DNA of 64,000 nt from Cryomorphaceae bacterium (GTDB taxonomy: Bacteria > Bacteroidota > Bacteroidia > Flavobacteriales_D > Parvicellaceae). A program made the position numbers and the translations under genes. The notes beneath the pieces are model-generated. The model was not told the origin of the DNA and did not search any database. It worked only from the letters and a program-made list of their open reading frames with translations. How positions within the stretch are numbered: the first letter of the stretch is position 1; each line of letters starts with the position of its first letter. Shown piece by piece: positions 37,456-47,461 of this stretch. The stretch covers positions 1-64,000 of the forward strand of contig CAJJBV010000003.1 in the NCBI GenBank assembly GCA_905182525.1, in the 5' to 3' direction.

Positions 37456-38355
37456 TCATTTCTTATTTTTTCTGATTGTAATAAAGCATCTAAGTCCATC
37501 CCAATTAGGAGAAACAGCTCTATCGTATACGTTACTCTCTTTTTTTACAAATGAAGAAAATTGTCTTTTCCAAAAGAAATCATCAAAGCTCATTCTCTGT
37601 GCATCATTAGCGTCATTATAAACAAAGAAGTTTTGGAAAACATATCTACACTCAGGGAAATATAACCAAAATAGATTTTTAAGTCCATCAACTTCAGTTG
37701 TTACTGGGTTTCTAGAGTAAACTACGGGCGAAATTCCAATGATACGTACATCAAGCATAGACCTTTGTTTGTCAAAAAACCAATCTTCTTTAAGATCATA
37801 TCTAATTATATCTCTACTTGTGTATGGTTCTACAACATCAATCTTAATATTCTCACCATCTGCATCTACGGCTGGCTCTTGATTTCCTAATTCATCGGTT
37901 TCAATTGAATCTCTAGTAGTTTCAGTACCAAACATAATTTCTAGCTCTTTTTTAAATTTCGGATCTTCAAGGTTTCCATTTTCAGGCTTTAAAGGGAACC
38001 TAAATTTATCATCTAAATCAATTCCATGTAAATCATAAAGTGTTAAAGAACCTTGGTTAGCACCATACTTAATAACATCAAATAAAGAAATTCTGTCATT
38101 TTGAGGCTCTAAAGGGTAATATAATTTATGATTCATTTTTTCTCTTAAATCTATTACTCTCCAAATACGTTTTGACCACATTACGTCAGCTTCTCTTAAA
38201 TGAACATAAGAAACTACTCTTTTTGTAGGTATGTGCTCTTGAATGTAAACTCCATCTAGAACACTAGACTCTAAGCTTATACCAGAACCTGGTAACTGGG
38301 CAAAAGATGTTGAAACAATTGAGAAAAATATAAATATGTAAATAAATTTTTTCAT
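37456..38355 (-). CDS. gldN: T9SS component GldN
   Basis: The 299-aa protein has a signal peptide ending SFAQ, followed by GldN-type sequence: LDGVYIQEHIPTKRVVSYVHLREADVMWSKR (split region), IWRVIDLREKMN, FDVIKYGA, and the C-terminal region with DMLDVRIIGISPV-like MLDVRIIGISPV and FFVYND. GldN/PorN is periplasmic and forms the rings with the lipoprotein GldK, linking the outer membrane to the GldLM motor. It is last in the cluster, two bases after gldM. Confidence 0.95.
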   Translation of the reverse strand: MKKFIYIFIFFSIVSTSFAQLPGSGISLESSVLDGVYIQEHIPTKRVVSYVHLREADVMWSKRIWRVIDLREKMNHKLYYPLEPQNDRISLFDVIKYGANQGSLTLYDLHGIDLDDKFRFPLKPENGNLEDPKFKKELEIMFGTETTRDSIETDELGNQEPAVDADGENIKIDVVEPYTSRDIIRYDLKEDWFFDKQRSMLDVRIIGISPVVYSRNPVTTEVDGLKNLFWLYFPECRYVFQNFFVYNDANDAQRMSFDDFFWKRQFSSFVKKESNVYDRAVSPNWDGLRCFITIRKNKK

Positions 38356-38357
38356 GA

Positions 38358-40367
38358 TTATATAAGTTTAATTACGATACCACCATCAAGTTGTGAAATT
38401 TTACCACCAGGCCCCTTAACTTTGACCATTGTAAAAGTTAGATTTCCACCCTTAGGTATTTTTTTAATCGCAGCTTTCATAAGACCTGTTAATCTATTGT
38501 TAGTTGATTTGTAAGTTATAGGAGAACCATTTTTCGTAGTATACATTGAAAAGCTAACTACCTGATAAGGTACATCAAGTGGACTTTCACCAAGTTTTGC
38601 TGTTATAGAAGAATAACTAGTTGCATTAACTTTTTTGAGTCTTCCACCAGATTTATTTGCGAAATAAGCGGTTGGTTTAGGTAAAGGGAATATTCTAAAT
38701 GTCTCATTTGCTAATTCAACATTCTTGCCATTATCATCAATTGCTGAAACGATAAGTTTAGCAGTTTTAGATTTAGTACCTGATACTTTAGCAGTATAAA
38801 AACCTTTGCTATCAGGACCACTAACAGAACATCCTCTACCAGAAAGTCTAATAGCTTCGGGCTTATATCCTGAAGCAGAAACCTTAATTCTATTACTCCA
38901 ATTCATATATAAAACCTGTAAATCTGCAGCAGAAATAGCTGCGTTTGGTGCACCAACAGAATAATTAAATTTCCAAGGTTTCCACTTTTTAACGCCCTTT
39001 TCTTTAATTGCAATAAAACCTGATAAAACATGGTCACCAACAGATCCAGATATTTTTACACTCTGCCCTGCTCTACCTTTAAAGGTTTGCATTGATTCAA
39101 TATCTTGAGTGGATTCAGATTTTGTCATCTGAGTAGAATCATCAACCCAATATTTCAATTCCATTGCTTCAGAAGAATCATAAGCAGCTATCATAACCTT
39201 TAAACCTAATGAATCTCCCTGGTTTATATAACTGGTCGCAGAAAATGCTAAAGGATCAATCTTGTTAAAGTTAAAAGATTGAACCTTAACTCTTGAAGCC
39301 ACCAACTGCGAAGCTAGTGTTTGAACTTGTAATATATCTGATCTAACAGATGTCATTACTGCAGTTGCAGCAACAATAGGGGCATGATCAAATTGACCAA
39401 AAATCCATGGATATTCTTCTCCATGATTCATTACTTTTTTAGGAATGGTCATCCTTACATAAATATTTTTAACAGTTTCAGCGTCTTTTGGATCTAATTT
39501 ATTTTCTTTTATCTCAAATTCAATTATCGAATCAACTATTGCTTCAAAAGCTTTCCTGTCACCTTCTGTAATTAAAAAATCTGGGTCTTCAATTAAAGTT
39601 GTATCAAATTTATATTGGTAAACAATTCCACCTTCCAAGGTATCACTAGGATGATTTGCAATTAAGGCGATTAAACCGTTTCTGTAATGATGAAGATTAT
39701 CCATAAGATGAACACCTTCTGGTGCAATAGATTCAAAATTTTCACCAGCTAATAACCTTGTTGGAGTGTCGTAATCATCTTTTTTCATGTAACCCGACAA
39801 GTCACGAATATGAATATATCCCTCATCGTCAATATGGAAAAGTGGGTTGTGATAATCATCAGTTTCTGAATTAACACCATGTAATTCATGATGTTCATCG
39901 ACTGCAATAATACCTAACTCGTTGACTTTTTTTACAAGAGCTTTAAGTTTTGTTTTTGACTCAACATCATCACTAATTATTGCTTCTTCTATATCCTTAA
40001 ATTCGGAGAATTCGGTGTTTTTATCACCAGCTGAAATTAAGAGATATAAATTTCTTTTTACGACGTCATTACATATGTGTCTTGTTAGTTCAACAATTTC
40101 ATCATTCGTATTCTTATGAAATTCAACTCTTTCTAACTCATCGGGTGGAGCTCCAGTAGCTTTTAATGTTGCTAATTTCGTGTCTAATTCTCCTGAAAGA
40201 TTTGTATTAAAAGACTCTACTTGTTCAATACTACTTTCTAATTTATTGTTTAGAGTAATAAATGCATTAATAATTTCCTTAGATACATTCATGGCAAGAA
40301 GAGCCATTAGTACTAAGTACATTAAACCAATCATTTTTTGTCTTGGCGTTTCTTTACCTCCACCCAT
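38358..40367 (-). CDS. gldM: T9SS motor subunit GldM (long form)
   Basis: It starts MGGGKETPRQKMIGLMYLVL, the hallmark of GldM, with one membrane helix at about residues 12-30. A long periplasmic part of beta domains follows and ends GPGGKISQLDGGIVIKLI. GldL and GldM form the proton-driven rotary motor of T9SS and gliding. At 669 aa it is about 150 aa longer than F. johnsoniae GldM or P. gingivalis PorM (just over 510). The excess seems to lie in the first half (about residues 60-330), where an Asp/Glu-rich stretch occurs (EDPDFLITEGDRKAFEAIV). Confidence 0.95.
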   Translation of the reverse strand: MGGGKETPRQKMIGLMYLVLMALLAMNVSKEIINAFITLNNKLESSIEQVESFNTNLSGELDTKLATLKATGAPPDELERVEFHKNTNDEIVELTRHICNDVVKRNLYLLISAGDKNTEFSEFKDIEEAIISDDVESKTKLKALVKKVNELGIIAVDEHHELHGVNSETDDYHNPLFHIDDEGYIHIRDLSGYMKKDDYDTPTRLLAGENFESIAPEGVHLMDNLHHYRNGLIALIANHPSDTLEGGIVYQYKFDTTLIEDPDFLITEGDRKAFEAIVDSIIEFEIKENKLDPKDAETVKNIYVRMTIPKKVMNHGEEYPWIFGQFDHAPIVAATAVMTSVRSDILQVQTLASQLVASRVKVQSFNFNKIDPLAFSATSYINQGDSLGLKVMIAAYDSSEAMELKYWVDDSTQMTKSESTQDIESMQTFKGRAGQSVKISGSVGDHVLSGFIAIKEKGVKKWKPWKFNYSVGAPNAAISAADLQVLYMNWSNRIKVSASGYKPEAIRLSGRGCSVSGPDSKGFYTAKVSGTKSKTAKLIVSAIDDNGKNVELANETFRIFPLPKPTAYFANKSGGRLKKVNATSYSSITAKLGESPLDVPYQVVSFSMYTTKNGSPITYKSTNNRLTGLMKAAIKKIPKGGNLTFTMVKVKGPGGKISQLDGGIVIKLI

Positions 40368-40399
40368 AATTTAATTTTTTTTTATTAATTAACAATAAA

Positions 40400-41212
40400 T
40401 TATTTATTCATATTCATAGCTGAAAGCATATTTCCGTAGACAGAATTTAAAGCAGCTAAGTTAGAGGTTAAGTCAGACATAGTTTCTTTATACTTTTTAG
40501 TATCATCAACAGAAGATTGTAAATTACTCACAATATTTGTTATACCTGTTGACATTTCTTCACTAGCTTTTGAAAGTGCTGAAACATCTTCTAATTGCAT
40601 TTCATATAGATTATTAAGTTGAGTAAGATTTCCTGAAACTTTATCTAACTGGTCTCCAAAATTAGAATTACCTGAAGATGTAGCGGTAATCTCAGTAATG
40701 GATATTGCAGCTTTGTCATATGCATTAGATAATTCACCTACTTTATTAGTTGCTCCTTTTAAATTATCGATATAATCATTGGTAGCATCAGAAGCAGAAC
40801 CAATATCACTTAATTTATTAGCATTTTCACTAAGATTTTTCATTCCTGAACCTAAACTTTCAATTAATTCTGGTTCTATTTTAGCTTTTGCAAGCATGTT
40901 GTCTAGTTGTTCGACTACGGATTCATTTGAAGCAGCTGGTAAATTATCAGTAGAAGTATTTTCAGAATGTCCTAAAGCCAATTCTGGATAGGCTATAGTC
41001 CAATCAATTTCTTCATGCAATGGTTCGTGTGCTGATAACATAAATATTACAGCTTCAACTCCTAATCCAGCAATAAGCATTATTCCCGCACCAGGCCAGT
41101 GTTGTATTTTAAACATCGCACCAATGATAACAATTGCACCACCGTACCCATAAACAAATTTCATACCTGTTTTAAACTTGGTACTTTCAAAAAAACTCTC
41201 TCCTGAACTCAT
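40400..41212 (-). CDS. gldL: T9SS motor subunit GldL
   Basis: The 270-aa protein has two inner-membrane helices near the N-terminus (KFVYGYGGAIVIIGAMFKIQHWPG and GIMLIAGLGVEAVIFMLSA), with the conserved Glu in the second helix that takes part in proton flow. A cytoplasmic coiled-coil-rich tail follows. It is the stator of the T9SS motor around the GldM helices. It lies between gldK and gldM, 32 bases from gldM. Confidence 0.95.
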   Translation of the reverse strand: MSSGESFFESTKFKTGMKFVYGYGGAIVIIGAMFKIQHWPGAGIMLIAGLGVEAVIFMLSAHEPLHEEIDWTIAYPELALGHSENTSTDNLPAASNESVVEQLDNMLAKAKIEPELIESLGSGMKNLSENANKLSDIGSASDATNDYIDNLKGATNKVGELSNAYDKAAISITEITATSSGNSNFGDQLDKVSGNLTQLNNLYEMQLEDVSALSKASEEMSTGITNIVSNLQSSVDDTKKYKETMSDLTSNLAALNSVYGNMLSAMNMNK

Positions 41213-41251
41213 AATTTTAATTTATATATTTATTGCTTATTAATTTTTTTA

Positions 41252-42747
41252 CTAAAAATCACCTTCTTTATTTTGGCCACCTCTGCCTAGGTAGTTCATA
41301 ACACTTCTGAAACCAATGTAACTTTTTGCTGTATCTTGATATTCATAAGTTCTTGTACCGTTTTGAAGGTAATATCCTATGTCTTTCCAGGAACCTCCTC
41401 TAACTACCTTTCTTTTCATTGACGGGGGATCATGGTCAAGAGCATTGTAAGTATATTCAGTATTCATATCATGGCCAAAATCATAAGAAGATGCATCATA
41501 AGCAGTTCTACACCATTCAGCGACATTACCAGCCATGCAATACAAACCATAATCATTTGGGTGGTAAGAACTTACTTTTACAGTATTAAAGCCACCATCT
41601 TCCATATATCTTCCTCTAATTGGCTTAAAGTTGCCCAAAAAACACCCTCTGGAATTCCTCGCATATGGACCTCCCCATGGGTAAGGGTTGTTATCCATGC
41701 CTCCCCTTGCTGAATATTCCCATTCTGTTTCACTTGGTAGTCTAAAGTCTTGGACAAATGATTCATAGTTAGAAGCTCTATAATGCATTCAATAATTGCG
41801 TTCTCCAAACATTAAATGCGTTACATTGTTGCCAGGTAACGCCTACTACTGGGTAATCATCATAAGCAGGATGCCAGAAATACATATTGGTCATATATTC
41901 ATTATTAGAATATGTAAAATCATGAATCCAACATAAAGTATCTGGATATACATTTATAATTTCTTTGATAATAAACCTTGAACGGTCTTCATGTCCTCTA
42001 ATAGCATTATTTTGACCTTTACTATTTCTAAATCCTAAATCTCTATCCCTTCCGCTTGTCTGACCAGGATCAACTGGAAAAGCAACATCAGGATTCTTCA
42101 TTTTAATTCTATGGTCTGTAGCTACTTGAGCTGCAGAGTTTGAAAGTCTTTTAATTAAAGGCCTACCTTTTTTGGCTGCTTCTTGCAAATCGATCCAATA
42201 ATATTCAAACATCAATTCTCTAGTATCAATTTCTTTCCTATTATAAAATCTTTCACTTTGGCTTAGAAACATTTTAGCTAACGGAACTGCATATTCCTCG
42301 TTTTGGCCTTTTTCAGGATTAAAAGAATTGTACCTAAATCTTTCATTCCAATTAAGAGCCCACTCGGATTGGTCTCTTTCAGATAAGATCATCATCATAG
42401 GTTGGAATAAGAAATAAATCGGGAAACTCCTCACCTAAAATTCTCCTAGCAATAGAATCTTTCACCCAATTTACAAACTGACGATATTCATTATTTGTTA
42501 TTTCTGTTTGGTCCATATAAAAGGCTGCAACTGAAACAGTTTTAGTTTCATTGCTATGATTATTAGGAACATCTTGATCACTTTGGCCCATATTAAAAGC
42601 ACCTGCTGGAACATATAACATACCGTAGGGATCAGTTTGAAACCACATTGGTCTATTTGGAGCACCAGTAAGCTGACCATTACTAGATTGTGTAGTACAG
42701 CTAGACACTAACATAACGATTAAAAAGAAATTTAATATATTTTTCAT
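41252..42747 (-). CDS. gldK: T9SS ring lipoprotein GldK, read in three frames
   Basis: The start is the ATG at 42745-42747 (MKNILNFFLIVMLVSSC), a lipoprotein signal with the lipid Cys at residue 17. The protein then follows the GldK/SUMF1 (formylglycine-generating-enzyme-like) pattern: MDQTEITNNEYRQFVNWV, VGVTWQQCNAFNVWR, DFRLPSETEWEYSARGG, GLYCMAGNVAEWC and VVRGGSWKD. Frames shift near 42395 (in a GATGATGAT run) and near 41785 (one extra T). Together they give about 497 aa, a normal GldK. Because gldLMN and porP are intact and GldK is needed for T9SS, sequencing error is more likely than true loss. GldK forms the outer-membrane ring with GldN. Confidence 0.9.
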
Positions 42748-42832
42748 TGTAAAAATTTTTGTCTTCAATCTTCCAGATGTATATGACATCAGGAACATTT
42801 ATAACGTTAAAAGTTTTAAATAGTTTCATGTT

Positions 42833-43777
42833 TTATAAAAATCGAGGGTTTTTCGATTTCTCAACATTCATAGGTTTAGCTATTCTAAAACAATAATTTA
42901 ACATCAAATCGTGTGAACCATTACTATATTTTCCAATGACGCTAGTAGTAATACCGTAGGCGTATCCAACCTTTAAAATACTACCATCAGAAAATGGATG
43001 TTGATAACCAAACATTGGAGCAATTTCGTCACCAATTCTGTAAGAAATTCCTCCCCATATCATATTTTTATAAAGTGCGTTAATATTAATATCCATAATT
43101 GAAGATGAGCCATCAGATTTGATCAAAATATTTGGCCTTAACTCGATATCTGCGTTTAAATCGTAATTAAATCCTGATGTAATCCAATAATGATGAACAT
43201 TTTGGATATTTAAATTTTTAACATTGAAACTTCCTAAATGTGTTGTGGATAGTCCGAAATATAGTTGTTTGGTTTTATAAAACAAACCAATATTAATATC
43301 GGGAACAGTTCCGCTATTCCCACCAACATCTTTTATAGTTGGGTCACTAATGTCACCAGCTGCTGAAGAAGTTCCGGAAGGGGTAATCCATTGATCTTCA
43401 AAACTTTTTTGAAAAACACCTACACTTGCACCTATACCTAAACGACCTGAACCGATAGGTAAGTGATAAGAATAACTTAAACGAGCAATATTGTTTTTTT
43501 CAAAACCTAATTGATCAGAAATATAAGTAAGGCCCAATCCGCCCCGTACAATTTCTACCGGCGACTGAACATTTATTAAAGCTGTTTGAGGACTACCCGT
43601 GAATCCAGACCACTGTTGCCTACCTATCATAGTAATACAAATATCGTTATGCATACCTGCAGATCCAGGGTTAAATGATAAATTATCAAACATATAATGT
43701 GTTATTTGATAATCTTGCTGAGCAATTGAATTACCACAGAAGGTAAAAGCAATAAAGTATATTATAAATTTCTTCAT
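42833..43777 (-). CDS. porP: T9SS outer-membrane protein PorP (PorP/SprF family)
   Basis: The 314-aa protein has a signal peptide ending NSIAQ. It then has the family motif QDYQITHYMFDNLSFNPGSAG, GRQQWSGFTGSPQT and an aromatic-rich beta-barrel ending in VGYAYGI and SHDLMLNYCF. It is first in a porP-gldK-gldL-gldM-gldN order, as in porPKLMN of Porphyromonas gingivalis. PorP-family proteins bind the T9SS motor side and help export or anchor substrates. It is about 85 bases upstream of gldK. Confidence 0.9.
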   Translation of the reverse strand: MKKFIIYFIAFTFCGNSIAQQDYQITHYMFDNLSFNPGSAGMHNDICITMIGRQQWSGFTGSPQTALINVQSPVEIVRGGLGLTYISDQLGFEKNNIARLSYSYHLPIGSGRLGIGASVGVFQKSFEDQWITPSGTSSAAGDISDPTIKDVGGNSGTVPDINIGLFYKTKQLYFGLSTTHLGSFNVKNLNIQNVHHYWITSGFNYDLNADIELRPNILIKSDGSSSIMDININALYKNMIWGGISYRIGDEIAPMFGYQHPFSDGSILKVGYAYGITTSVIGKYSNGSHDLMLNYCFRIAKPMNVEKSKNPRFL

Positions 43778-43882: not shown

Positions 43883-45031
43883 CTAATTTAACTTCCTGTA
43901 AGTCTTCCACCACAAATCAGGTATTATTCCATTTTGAGCAATTACGTAATCATTGCGGTTACATGGAATCAAATGATGACGTTCAAATTTAAAATCTTTT
44001 GTAGGTGGATATGGAACCTCTAACCACCATCTATTTGATTTTATACTCTTATGAAATATTAGATTATGGTTAGTGTCTTCGTGATAAACTGAGTATTTAA
44101 TTAAATCCTTTTTGGATCCAATAGGATAATCTTTCTTTCTTTCTGAAAACCCAAGAATTAAAAAAAATACCAGCTGAGCAACTAATTCACTATCTACATT
44201 TTTTAATTCACCAGTTTTTAAATTGTAAAAACCAACGCTAGAAATTTTATCACTTAAACCAGCATATTTAATCATTTGACACATCTCATTTCCGAAAAAC
44301 CCATTAGGATGCTTACTTTGAGCGCTACTAAATTCTGAATTTCTTAAAGAAGATAAATCAACACTTAGAATGTCAGTATTTCTTAAAATGGGCTCAGATT
44401 TTTCAATTGAACCTTGAAGCTCTCCTAGCCTTATATAATCAAAAAAAAGATCATCAAAAAATCTTAAATCATCCGAGCTAATATAAAATTGCTGACATCC
44501 TAAAATTGAAAAATTAAATAGTAAATTGGACTTATGAAGTAATAAATGGTTTATAAAATTATCAGATGAAATTTCTGACTCTTCGTTGAGAATAACATCA
44601 AAACGATTATCAATACAAGTTAAATTAACTGGTAATTCTAATTTTTCGTATCCTGAATAATTAGGGAAAGTTAAATCCTGAGAACCACCTAAAATAATTA
44701 ACAGTTTTCCTTTTTTTTGAACTTCAAAAGTAATTTCTTTAATAGCTGCATAGGTGTCTTTTAATTCAGCACCTGATTCGAGAATTCCAAGGTCAGAAAT
44801 CTTTAGAGAGCCTTCCCAATTAAAATTATAAAGCTTTTTTCTAATATTAAAATGGTCAAAGTCTTCATTTCTGATTATTGAAGACCCTTTATTTTCATTA
44901 ATAGACAAAAACACTATATCTGAATTTTCCCAGTCTGGAAAATCGTTGATATAACAATCAATTACAGACCCGATTGTATTTTTAGAAACCTCGATTTTTT
45001 GAGTTGGTTTGAAATAAATTTCAAGATCCAT
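43883..45031 (-). CDS. arginase/formimidoylglutamase-fold protein lacking metal ligands
   Basis: The 382-aa protein aligns with the arginase/agmatinase/formimidoylglutamase fold: LLIILGGSQDLTFPNY at the GGDHS position, CIDNRFD at DxHxD, and ILSVDLSSLRNSE at SxDxDxxDP. The His and several Asp ligands that hold the two Mn ions are replaced (Q, R, S), so hydrolase activity is unlikely. The gene starts immediately at the topA stop side (45031/45032) and precedes porP. The topA-(formimidoylglutamase-like)-gld order is, as far as I recall, seen in other flavobacteria, which hints at a non-enzymatic role. The name formimidoylglutamase used in databases is probably misleading here. Confidence 0.75.
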   Translation of the reverse strand: MDLEIYFKPTQKIEVSKNTIGSVIDCYINDFPDWENSDIVFLSINENKGSSIIRNEDFDHFNIRKKLYNFNWEGSLKISDLGILESGAELKDTYAAIKEITFEVQKKGKLLIILGGSQDLTFPNYSGYEKLELPVNLTCIDNRFDVILNEESEISSDNFINHLLLHKSNLLFNFSILGCQQFYISSDDLRFFDDLFFDYIRLGELQGSIEKSEPILRNTDILSVDLSSLRNSEFSSAQSKHPNGFFGNEMCQMIKYAGLSDKISSVGFYNLKTGELKNVDSELVAQLVFFLILGFSERKKDYPIGSKKDLIKYSVYHEDTNHNLIFHKSIKSNRWWLEVPYPPTKDFKFERHHLIPCNRNDYVIAQNGIIPDLWWKTYRKLN

Positions 45032-47461
45032 CTATTTGGTTTTTAGAAAGTTTTTTGCTTCTTCCAAAGTAATTTTAGAAGGATCTTTGGAGGCTGCTAG
45101 CTGTTTTTTCTTTTTGCCAGAAACAACAAAGAATTTTCCCCACCTACCTTTTTGAACAGACACACCGTCATTTTCCCAATTCTGTATTACTTTTTCAATT
45201 TCTTTTTTCTTTTTTTCTTCGATTAATTGTGAGATATCTTCAAATGTAAGATTGTCAAAATCATACTTTTTATTTACATTAATAAATAACTCATTCCATT
45301 TTATAAACGGACCAAACCTACCCGTTCCTTTAGATACTGGAAGATTTTCATATTCTGCTACAGGTGCATTGGCCTTTCTTTTATCATCTATTAGCGAAAT
45401 GGCACTATTTAGCAAAACTTCATCGGGCTCAATTCCTTTTGGAATAGAAACGTTTTCAGTGCCAAACTGAATGTAGGGTCCAAACCTTCCAACTTTAATA
45501 GACACATCCAAATCTTCATGCTGACCAAGTAATTTAGGATAATCAAATAATTTTAAAGCTTCTTCTAGGCTTATAGTTTTAATGTGTTGCCCTTCTTTTA
45601 AACTTGCAAATTTTGGTTTTTTAGTTTCATCTGCTGTGTCTCCGATTTGAGCAATCGGACCGTACTTCCCAAGCTTTACAAACAATGGTTCACCACTCGC
45701 AGGGTCTTTGCCTAAAAGTCTTTCTCCGTTGGCTCTTTCTGCATTCTCTTTAGTATGCTCTATAGTTTTATGGAAAGGGGAATAGAAACTGGATAACATA
45801 TCTGTCCACAATAATTCTCCTTTGGCAACTGAGTCCAATTCTTTTTCAATATCAGCAGTGAAATTATAATCCATTATATTTTTAAAATGCTCTACTAAAA
45901 ATTCATTAACGACTTCACCAGTGGTTGTTGGAAATAACTTTTTCCTGTCTGCTCCGAAATTTTCATTTAAATCAATTTCATCAATAGAATTTTTAATTAA
46001 AGTTAATTTTTTAATTAATCTAGATTTCCCATCTAAATCCTTATTTTCAACATATCCTCTGTCTTGAATTGTCTTTATTGTTGGAGCATAAGTTGATGGT
46101 CTGCCGATACCCAACTCTTCTAACTTTTTAACTAATGAAGCCTCTGTATATCTTGCTGGGGGTCTTGAAAATTTCTGAGTAGCTGATATTTCATTACAGT
46201 CTAATTTTTCACCTTTAGAAACATCCGGAAGCTCATCACTCTTATCGTCTGAAGTTTGTAGTTTATATAGTTTTAAAAACCCATCAAATTTTATTACTTC
46301 TCCAATAGTATTAAAGTTTTGTTTTTGCCCCTGATAACCTATTTCTATAGTTGTACGTTCAATCTCAGCATCACTCATTTGAGAAGCCATTGTTTTTTTC
46401 CAAATCAAGGAATATAATTTATCTTCTGGCGATCCGTCACCAATAGAGCTAATTGAAAAATTAGATGGTCTAATAGCCTCATGTGCTTCTTGTGCAGATT
46501 TGTTTTTGTTTTGATATTTTCTTGGGTTACAGTAATTAGAACCGTAGTCTTTTTCAATTTGTTTTTGGATTGAAGTCATCGCGTCCATAGAAAGACTTAC
46601 GGAATCAGTTCTCATATAAGTTATTCTTCCAGATTCATATAATCTTTGAGCTACAGACATAGTCCTAGAAACATTAAAACCTAAAACTCTACTAGCTTCT
46701 TGCTGAAGAGTTGAAGTAATAAATGGAGCTGAAGGTGTTCTTTTACCAGGTTTTTGAGAAATATTATTAACCAAAAACTCTTTATTTTTAGAGGATTCTA
46801 AAAAACTTTTTGCTTCCAAAAAAGTTGAAAAATTAGATGGTAATTCTGCTTTAAAAGCAACTCCCTTAGATTCAAACTCTGCAACAACTTTAAATGTACC
46901 TATCGGTTGGTGATTTATAATTTTATTTTCTCTTTCTACAATTAATTTTACAGTAACAGATTGAACTCTACCGGCTGAAAGGCTTGGTCTGATTTTTCTC
47001 CATAAAACAGGCGATAATTCAAAACCAACTATTCTATCAAGAATTCTTCTAGCTTGTTGTGAATTTACTAAATCTTCGTTAATAACTCTTGGAGATTCAA
47101 CGGCTTTAAGAACTGCTTTTTTAGTGATTTCATTGAACGTTATTCTTTTTGTGTTTTTGACATCTAAATTTAGTGCGTGGAGCAAATGCCATGATATGGC
47201 TTCCCCTTCTCGATCCTCATCCGTTGCTAACCAAACTGTTTTACACTTTTTAGCTATACTTAAAAGTTCATTTACAACTTTTTTCTTTTCTTGTGGGACA
47301 ACATATGTTGGTGCAAAGTTATTTTCAATATCAATGGGATCTCCTTTTCTAGGCAATTCTCTAATATGCCCATAACAAGACTTTACTACAAAATCGCTTC
47401 CTAAAAAACCTTCAATAGTTTTTGCTTTAGCGGGGGACTCTACAATTACAAGATTATTCAT
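45032..47461 (-). CDS. topA: DNA topoisomerase I
   Basis: The 809-aa protein is of normal length. It has the TOPRIM domain (IVESPAKAKTIE at 5-16, WLATDEDREGEAISWHL), ARRILDRIVGFELSP, and the catalytic Tyr in GRITYMRTDS. C-terminal topoisomerase repeats are of the KVGRFGPYIQFG and KGTGRFGPFIKW type. It relaxes negative supercoils by single-strand passage. It is divergent from miaB and directly followed by the arginase-fold gene. Confidence 0.97.
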   Translation of the reverse strand: MNNLVIVESPAKAKTIEGFLGSDFVVKSCYGHIRELPRKGDPIDIENNFAPTYVVPQEKKKVVNELLSIAKKCKTVWLATDEDREGEAISWHLLHALNLDVKNTKRITFNEITKKAVLKAVESPRVINEDLVNSQQARRILDRIVGFELSPVLWRKIRPSLSAGRVQSVTVKLIVERENKIINHQPIGTFKVVAEFESKGVAFKAELPSNFSTFLEAKSFLESSKNKEFLVNNISQKPGKRTPSAPFITSTLQQEASRVLGFNVSRTMSVAQRLYESGRITYMRTDSVSLSMDAMTSIQKQIEKDYGSNYCNPRKYQNKNKSAQEAHEAIRPSNFSISSIGDGSPEDKLYSLIWKKTMASQMSDAEIERTTIEIGYQGQKQNFNTIGEVIKFDGFLKLYKLQTSDDKSDELPDVSKGEKLDCNEISATQKFSRPPARYTEASLVKKLEELGIGRPSTYAPTIKTIQDRGYVENKDLDGKSRLIKKLTLIKNSIDEIDLNENFGADRKKLFPTTTGEVVNEFLVEHFKNIMDYNFTADIEKELDSVAKGELLWTDMLSSFYSPFHKTIEHTKENAERANGERLLGKDPASGEPLFVKLGKYGPIAQIGDTADETKKPKFASLKEGQHIKTISLEEALKLFDYPKLLGQHEDLDVSIKVGRFGPYIQFGTENVSIPKGIEPDEVLLNSAISLIDDKRKANAPVAEYENLPVSKGTGRFGPFIKWNELFINVNKKYDFDNLTFEDISQLIEEKKKKEIEKVIQNWENDGVSVQKGRWGKFFVVSGKKKKQLAASKDPSKITLEEAKNFLKTK

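Follow-up and report, generated by a model that had tools for sequence, protein, structure and literature searches.

The gene at 43883-45031 of the window (by which we mean the whole stretch of 64,000 nucleotides that was analysed) belongs to a family of arginase-fold proteins in which none of the 121 full-length members keeps the full two-metal site. The reading to which we lean, with somewhat better than even confidence, is that the product is a metal-free pseudo-ureohydrolase which acts in the cytosol as a binding or scaffold protein and performs a housekeeping task in Bacteroidia. Alignments and structural models together indicate that the fold was kept, that the two-metal site was dismantled in every full-length member examined and that a C-terminal domain was fixed; comparison of genomes indicates in turn that nearly all of the class sample has the gene, and that strong purifying selection maintains it where SprA is missing. 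The sampled class, which we take to be Bacteroidia, was deduced from the records of four named relatives and from general taxonomy; these records (Flavobacteriales, Crocinitomicaceae and Bacteroidetes MAGs) hold close relatives that are 71-76% identical. The features concerned are the following.

45032-47461, minus strand: topA, DNA topoisomerase I, the conserved upstream neighbour
43883-45031, minus strand: the pseudo-arginase gene, 382 aa plus stop, gap to topA zero
44135-44986, minus strand: arginase/formiminoglutamase-fold core, residues 16-299 (AlphaFold2 model and VIA match)
44675-44689, minus strand: motif 1, GGSQD, residues 115-119, with Q118 at the first His ligand position
44597-44611, minus strand: motif 2, DNRFD, residues 141-145, with D141 and D145 kept and R143 at the second His position
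44345-44365, minus strand: motif 3, SVDLSSL, residues 223-229, with D225 kept and S227 at the last Asp position
43886-44134, minus strand: C-terminal extension, residues 300-382, four strands and two helices, missing from canonical relatives
44024-44032, minus strand: RWW motif, residues 334-336, with W335 and W336 in 121/121 members
43889-43921, minus strand: PDLWWKTYRKL tail, residues 371-381, with P371 in 120/121 and W374 in 119/121
42833-43777, minus strand: porP/sprF (TIGR03519, 217 bits), the conserved downstream neighbour
37456-42798, minus strand: gldK (broken here), gldL, gldM and gldN, motor and ring genes of the type IX secretion system (T9SS), downstream

The pseudo-arginase gene is one intact ORF and the single match within its own genome. 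Its ATG begins where topA ends, and porP/sprF lies 105 bases past the gene, followed by gldK, gldL, gldM and gldN, in agreement with the neighbours that the earlier note had named (topA at zero gap, porP on the other side). In the window, gldK (41252-42798, minus strand) is split into three ORFs in three frames, of 139, 218 and 178 aa, and in seven relatives it is a single ORF of 502-533 aa; either a genuine frameshift or a fault of the assembly may account for the break.

By fold and by Pfam match the protein is a member of the arginase/ureohydrolase superfamily. The Pfam Arginase model (PF00491) gives 22.4 bits (E 9.9e-5) for a threshold of 22 bits, and 21.4 bits, just under that threshold, in the genome scan. 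The AlphaFold2 model, for which a 35-sequence alignment was the input, has a mean pLDDT of 89.9 and a pTM of 0.91. Its top VIA match is the Trypanosoma cruzi formiminoglutamase (Z 34.4 over 276 residues, 2.3 A), the best chain of Bacillus subtilis HutG scores Z 31.4, and the 50 superfamily entries among the matches listed lie at Z 25-34. These two proteins (PDB 2a0m and 4mxr for the T. cruzi enzyme, 3m1r and 1xfk for HutG) share the core fold with the pseudo-arginase and are also its nearest solved relatives by sequence profile, and their matches cover residues ~15-300 only. Judged from the profile match and the predicted structure, the likeness to the arginase fold is not a matter of chance. 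The T. cruzi enzyme and HutG are metalloenzymes, whereas the pseudo-arginase is without three of the six ligands and has an extra C-terminal domain. In a tree of the core, rooted on one canonical sequence and made of 68 family tips (61 of the 121 and the seven very divergent members described below) with 22 canonical relatives, the family, divergent members included, forms one group free of canonical sequences, with a modest support of 0.79.

The sole NCBIfam match of the protein is HutG, a histidine-degradation enzyme (TIGR01227), with 35.2 bits against an equivalog cut-off of 229.15 bits. The two-Mn site of HutG, made of two His and four Asp, is incomplete here, with Q118, R143 and S227 in the places of His, His and Asp, and no histidine-degradation genes are seen among the adjacent genes of the window, which are topA, porP and the gld genes instead. 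The name formimidoylglutamase, or that of any other active ureohydrolase, was therefore rejected on score (35 versus 229 bits) and on ligands, and the earlier caution against it was well placed.

The state of the metal site was followed in 154 distinct arginase-like ORFs collected from the fetched loci: 121 full-length family members (at least 230 bits and at least 350 aa), 22 relatives that we grouped as canonical (20 loci of one set plus L069 and L070), seven very divergent members, and four partial sequences (fragments or incomplete copies) that were not counted. The ligand positions, which in the numbering of rat arginase we take to be H101, D124, H126, D128, D232 and D234, were transferred to the family by way of the alignment and of a PDB match. 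At position 118, 103 of the 121 members have Gln and nine have His, while canonical relatives have His (20/22) or Asn (2/22). D141 is present in all 121 and D145 in 111; between them, at position 143, His is found in four members and Lys or Arg in 70. D225 is kept in 118, and Asp at 227 occurs in none of the 121 versus all 22 of the canonical relatives. Summed over the six Mn ligands, four are kept in 12 members, three in 100, two in six and one in three, and canonical relatives have six (18 sequences) or five (four sequences). The substitutions at the ligand sites recur across the family, and a Glu, for which we take arginase E277 to be the reference residue, is kept in 69/121. The earlier note had seen the motifs GGSQD, DNRFD and SVDLSSL in a kept arginase fold, had proposed a retained pseudoenzyme and had suggested an alignment of the ligands as a check. 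The motifs are exact in the window protein, the fold stands on the scores given above, and the alignment separates 121 members with at most four ligands from 22 canonical relatives with five or six; this comparison of sequences bears out the pseudoenzyme reading throughout the class sample.

Among the very divergent members, three of the seven have Asp at 227, most other ligands being gone there. The two copies of family f16 (L157 and L158) have one metal-site residue left, that same Asp, and a partly lost RWW motif (LWY); despite this divergence they still adjoin topA. Hydrolase activity would have been lost, since loss of the ligands argues against it. The old metal pocket may be filled by side chains instead, because Lys or Arg so often takes the second His position, beside kept Asp residues. 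Three sequences with Arg at 118 together with Asn at both 145 and 225 would fit such a pocket, balanced by side chains and free of metal.

What the core lost in ligands is accompanied by what the family has of its own. Past position 310, every one of the 121 members has at least 59 residues, versus 0-5 in the 22 canonical relatives. Modelled alone, this extension of ~80 residues has a pLDDT of 78.7 and forms the strands and helices listed above. Pfam has no family for it in the window member and scattered weak ones elsewhere, a PDB sequence search returned nothing convincing, and Foldseek found no match to the model below E 1; the best VIA match, a putative adenylate cyclase at Z 4.9, is not a confident one. 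This want of matches is no evidence of a new fold. W335 is found in all seven very divergent members too, where most core ligand positions have changed. Among 247 genomes drawn from across the phylum, matches beyond the class end by position 324 of the 389 of the model, before the RWW tail. Residues fixed in the family and rare or absent in canonical relatives occur in core and tail alike; they include D92, T93, R201, G203, E213, P214, R217, Y256, G267, F326, K328, S329, R334, W335, W336, P356, C357, Y362, P371 and W374. Because so many positions specific to the family are fixed, the pseudo-arginase is not a decayed protein. The idea that the tail is better conserved than the core was dropped, the mean majority fractions hardly differing (0.594 versus 0.576). 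A partner or ligand would be bound through the family-specific surface, made of R201, E213-P214-x-x-R217, RWW and the PDxWW tail, and this would probably take place in the cytosol, no signal peptide being seen by eye.

The distribution of the gene was studied in a class sample of 296 genomes, each at least 95% complete. With cut-offs of E 1e-15 for the pseudo-arginase and E 1e-10 for SprA, and in raw counts that ignore shared ancestry, the former is present in 279 genomes and the latter in 289: both occur in 276, SprA only in 13, the pseudo-arginase only in three and neither in four. At the cut-off of E 1e-15 very divergent copies are possibly missed among the 17 negatives. One of these, G042, may be a gap, since its genus mates G052 and G058 have the gene. 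Of the 13 genomes with SprA and without the pseudo-arginase, 12 have GldL. The pseudo-arginase-only genomes are G061 and G477, of the same genus, and G348. The missing SprA and GldL of the latter are probably assembly gaps, because it is 95% complete and has 150 scored matches to T9SS sorting tails; it should not be counted as SprA-negative.

The genus of G061 is the place where the link with T9SS could be broken. Its 40 genomes all have the pseudo-arginase, while 11 have SprA and 37 have GldL; all 29 SprA-negative genomes thus keep the gene, 26 of them with GldL and three without. The three GldL-negative genomes, all of them among the SprA-negatives, are G477, G580 and G585 (99%, 85% and 95% complete). 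G477 also has no GldK above the family cut-off and a single sorting-tail match, versus 6 and 9 in two relatives from its family; G061 is without SprA, but has GldL and GldK above the cut-off. On the gene tree of the genus, in which 10 of 43 nodes have a support below 0.8, SprA changes state at least four times, or six if only losses are allowed. Close pairs of SprA-negative genomes (n=36, dS 0.05-1.2), which are not independent of one another, have a median dN/dS of 0.027, and the pseudo-arginase is under strong purifying selection in these genomes; only one SprA-positive pair is close enough (dN/dS 0.058), so that the figures show constraint rather than allowing a comparison. The median root-to-tip distance is 0.373 for the 11 SprA-positive genomes and 0.422 for the 26 SprA-negative ones with GldL. 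The three genomes without SprA and GldL (0.426, 0.486 and 0.521) are within the range of the others, 0.353-0.593, and above the SprA-positive median. The 26 genomes that carry the GldL motor protein without the SprA translocon are an observation in their own right: the GldL match is weaker and mostly covers part of the model in the 11 SprA-positive genomes, and it is full-length in 23 of these 26. The motor may have another use in this genus.

The pseudo-arginase does not track SprA, and a strict T9SS component, which had looked strong as the main reading on the class-wide counts (276/279), was given up when this genus broke the link. The earlier note had suggested that the protein may help T9SS or gliding. 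A dedicated role there is poorly supported overall and finds no support in the pattern of presence and absence, with 13 of 289 SprA-positive genomes lacking the gene and 29 of 29 SprA-negative genomes of one genus keeping it: the pseudo-arginase neither always accompanies SprA nor disappears with it. The case against a link with the GldL motor is weaker than the case against one with the SprA translocon, because 26 of the 29 SprA-negative genomes have GldL; a GldL link is made less likely but may still hold, because just three genomes bear on it.

It is gene order that keeps a T9SS role alive as a rival. In a set of 98 genomes from 46 families, where counts are lower bounds because some loci stop at contig ends, topA, the most common neighbour, immediately precedes the gene on the same strand in at least 69 genomes (37 families), and gld or porP genes follow it within 6 kb, again on the same strand, in at least 62 (35 families). 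Both flanks, that is the order topA-pseudoarginase-porP-gldKLMN, are found in at least 57 genomes and 32 families, and neither in 24 genomes. Besides topA, the commonest neighbours are T9SS genes, so the pseudo-arginase is indeed encoded with them. Of the gene-order check proposed earlier, the expected wide conservation was thus observed; absence of the gene from genomes without T9SS was not, inasmuch as SprA-negative genomes keep it. One further result favours the T9SS idea. In three of five f18 genomes (G121, G215 and G219) and in the one f92 genome examined (G349), the pseudo-arginase is tail to tail with murF and near gldJ; a porU relative is present at the relocated locus in all three f18 genomes, and G121 and G215 also have a porP relative there. 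NCBIfam named murF, gldJ and porP in G121, porU in G215 and gldJ in G349, the others being recognized by similarity. Of the hints at a T9SS role that remain, this placement is the best one, and it counts against the housekeeping reading; it may stand for one relocation event if the two families are related. The f18 copies (L160, L161 and L162) are very divergent, with an eroded core and W335 kept, and the f92 copy (L147) is typical. Other neighbours of relocated copies (NAD-epimerase in f14, NqrF in f19) are confined to one or two families, and no common partner emerges among them.

Taken together, the shared locus, the murF/gldJ placement and the presence of SprA in nearly all class genomes that have the gene would suit an accessory protein that serves the T9SS or gliding motor from the cytosol, for example by binding GldL or GldM on their cytosolic side or by helping assembly. 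We consider this unlikely, although it is the alternative that fares best, in view of the 13 SprA-positive genomes that do without the gene (12 of them with the motor protein GldL) and of the SprA-negative ones in which it persists, including three without GldL where its root-to-tip distance is within the range of the others. Under the housekeeping reading, the place between topA and the gld genes would be an inherited gene order and no proof of a T9SS role. A wider order, secG-lptE-regulator-miaB / topA-pseudoarginase-porP-gldKLMN, recurs widely (lptE, secG and regulator being our own, putative names for ORFs of the window), which suggests a stable ancestral region.

That same stability bears on a second alternative, that the protein is a partner of TopA, made in step with topoisomerase I and binding or regulating it through the C-terminal domain. 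The frequency with which topA directly precedes the gene speaks for it, as do 12 genomes in which the gene adjoins topA but a search downstream met no gld or porP gene (three of these loci end at a contig end); the 12 include both fetched f16 genomes, where the protein is very divergent. But topA was not found within ~8 kb in the fetched genomes of f14, f15, f18, f19, f20, f84 and f92, where the gene has another location, and the order shared with miaB, secG and other genes points to a stretch of chromosome that is stable in general. We regard such a partnership as improbable.

We are equally sceptical of an active enzyme that would use a reduced, one-metal site for a different reaction. Binding of one metal is conceivable, the residues of one site being partly kept in most members: the positions of the first Mn site (118, 141, 145 and 225) are largely conserved, with Gln or His at 118 in 112/121 and the three Asp residues at the frequencies given above, and the T. 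cruzi formiminoglutamase, the nearest fold match, which was solved with Mn, has Asn at the first His ligand position. Against this stand the loss of the last Asp ligand in 121/121 and of the second His in 117/121, the sequences that combine Arg118 with Asn145 and Asn225 and would suit a metal-free pocket, and the seven very divergent members, which lost most of the remaining ligands and kept W335.

Proteins of the arginase family without a full metal site have precedents. Hai et al. reportedly described, in 2015, an arginase-like protein of Trypanosoma brucei without the binuclear manganese cluster; to our knowledge, nothing like it is on record class-wide in bacteria. This protein is trypanosomal, whereas the pseudo-arginase is bacterial, with signature residues of its own and an added domain. 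The review PMC10820115 has the T. brucei protein as one with an arginase fold, no metal cluster and no activity. The closest analogy is MetCb (also MfmB), which according to the relevant part of PMC11271267 is the metal-free arginase-family subunit of a Ni-dependent metformin hydrolase, is needed by MetCa, and functions by binding protein, a lengthened C-terminal loop forming part of the interface; the same part of that source has pseudo-ureohydrolases known from few cases, mostly without a function. Neither MetCb nor the pseudo-arginase has a full metal site, and by analogy a binder role may be proposed for the latter.

The likeness would end there, because the ureohydrolase with which MetCb pairs is active and is encoded by an adjacent gene. 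No catalytic ureohydrolase gene adjoins the pseudo-arginase in the window, and a search of its own genome (G000, 96.4% complete) with PF00491 at E 0.001 found the pseudo-arginase itself as the sole match, so that no catalytic partner is visible there. A canonical PF00491 protein is present in only one (G007) of the 11 genomes of its genus, several of which are incomplete. Hence the idea of a subunit without catalysis of its own that works together with an active ureohydrolase, in the manner of MetCb, is rejected for this genome and falls as a general explanation, and we consider it very improbable in spite of the precedent and of the further PF00491 proteins carried by most other relatives searched. 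The open-licence PMC literature yielded no paper on the pseudo-arginase family; in its searchable portions, 'type IX secretion' and 'arginase' co-occur in one paper, on Prevotella genomes, and the accessible part of PMC12635249 has no mention of arginase or of related words.

We thus come back to the metal-free binding or scaffold protein. A more pointed form of this proposal, to which we would give slightly less than an even chance, is that of an unnamed, near-universal housekeeping protein of Bacteroidia in which a dead arginase fold is joined to a new C-terminal domain and which is required for a basic cell process, perhaps one connected with TopA or with envelope building, independently of both ureohydrolysis and T9SS. 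What emerges is a class-wide pseudo-ureohydrolase (279/296 genomes) that has an extra domain and fixed residues of its own and is encoded next to gliding and secretion motor genes. Its persistence where SprA has been lost shifts the question of its role away from T9SS and towards general cell biology.
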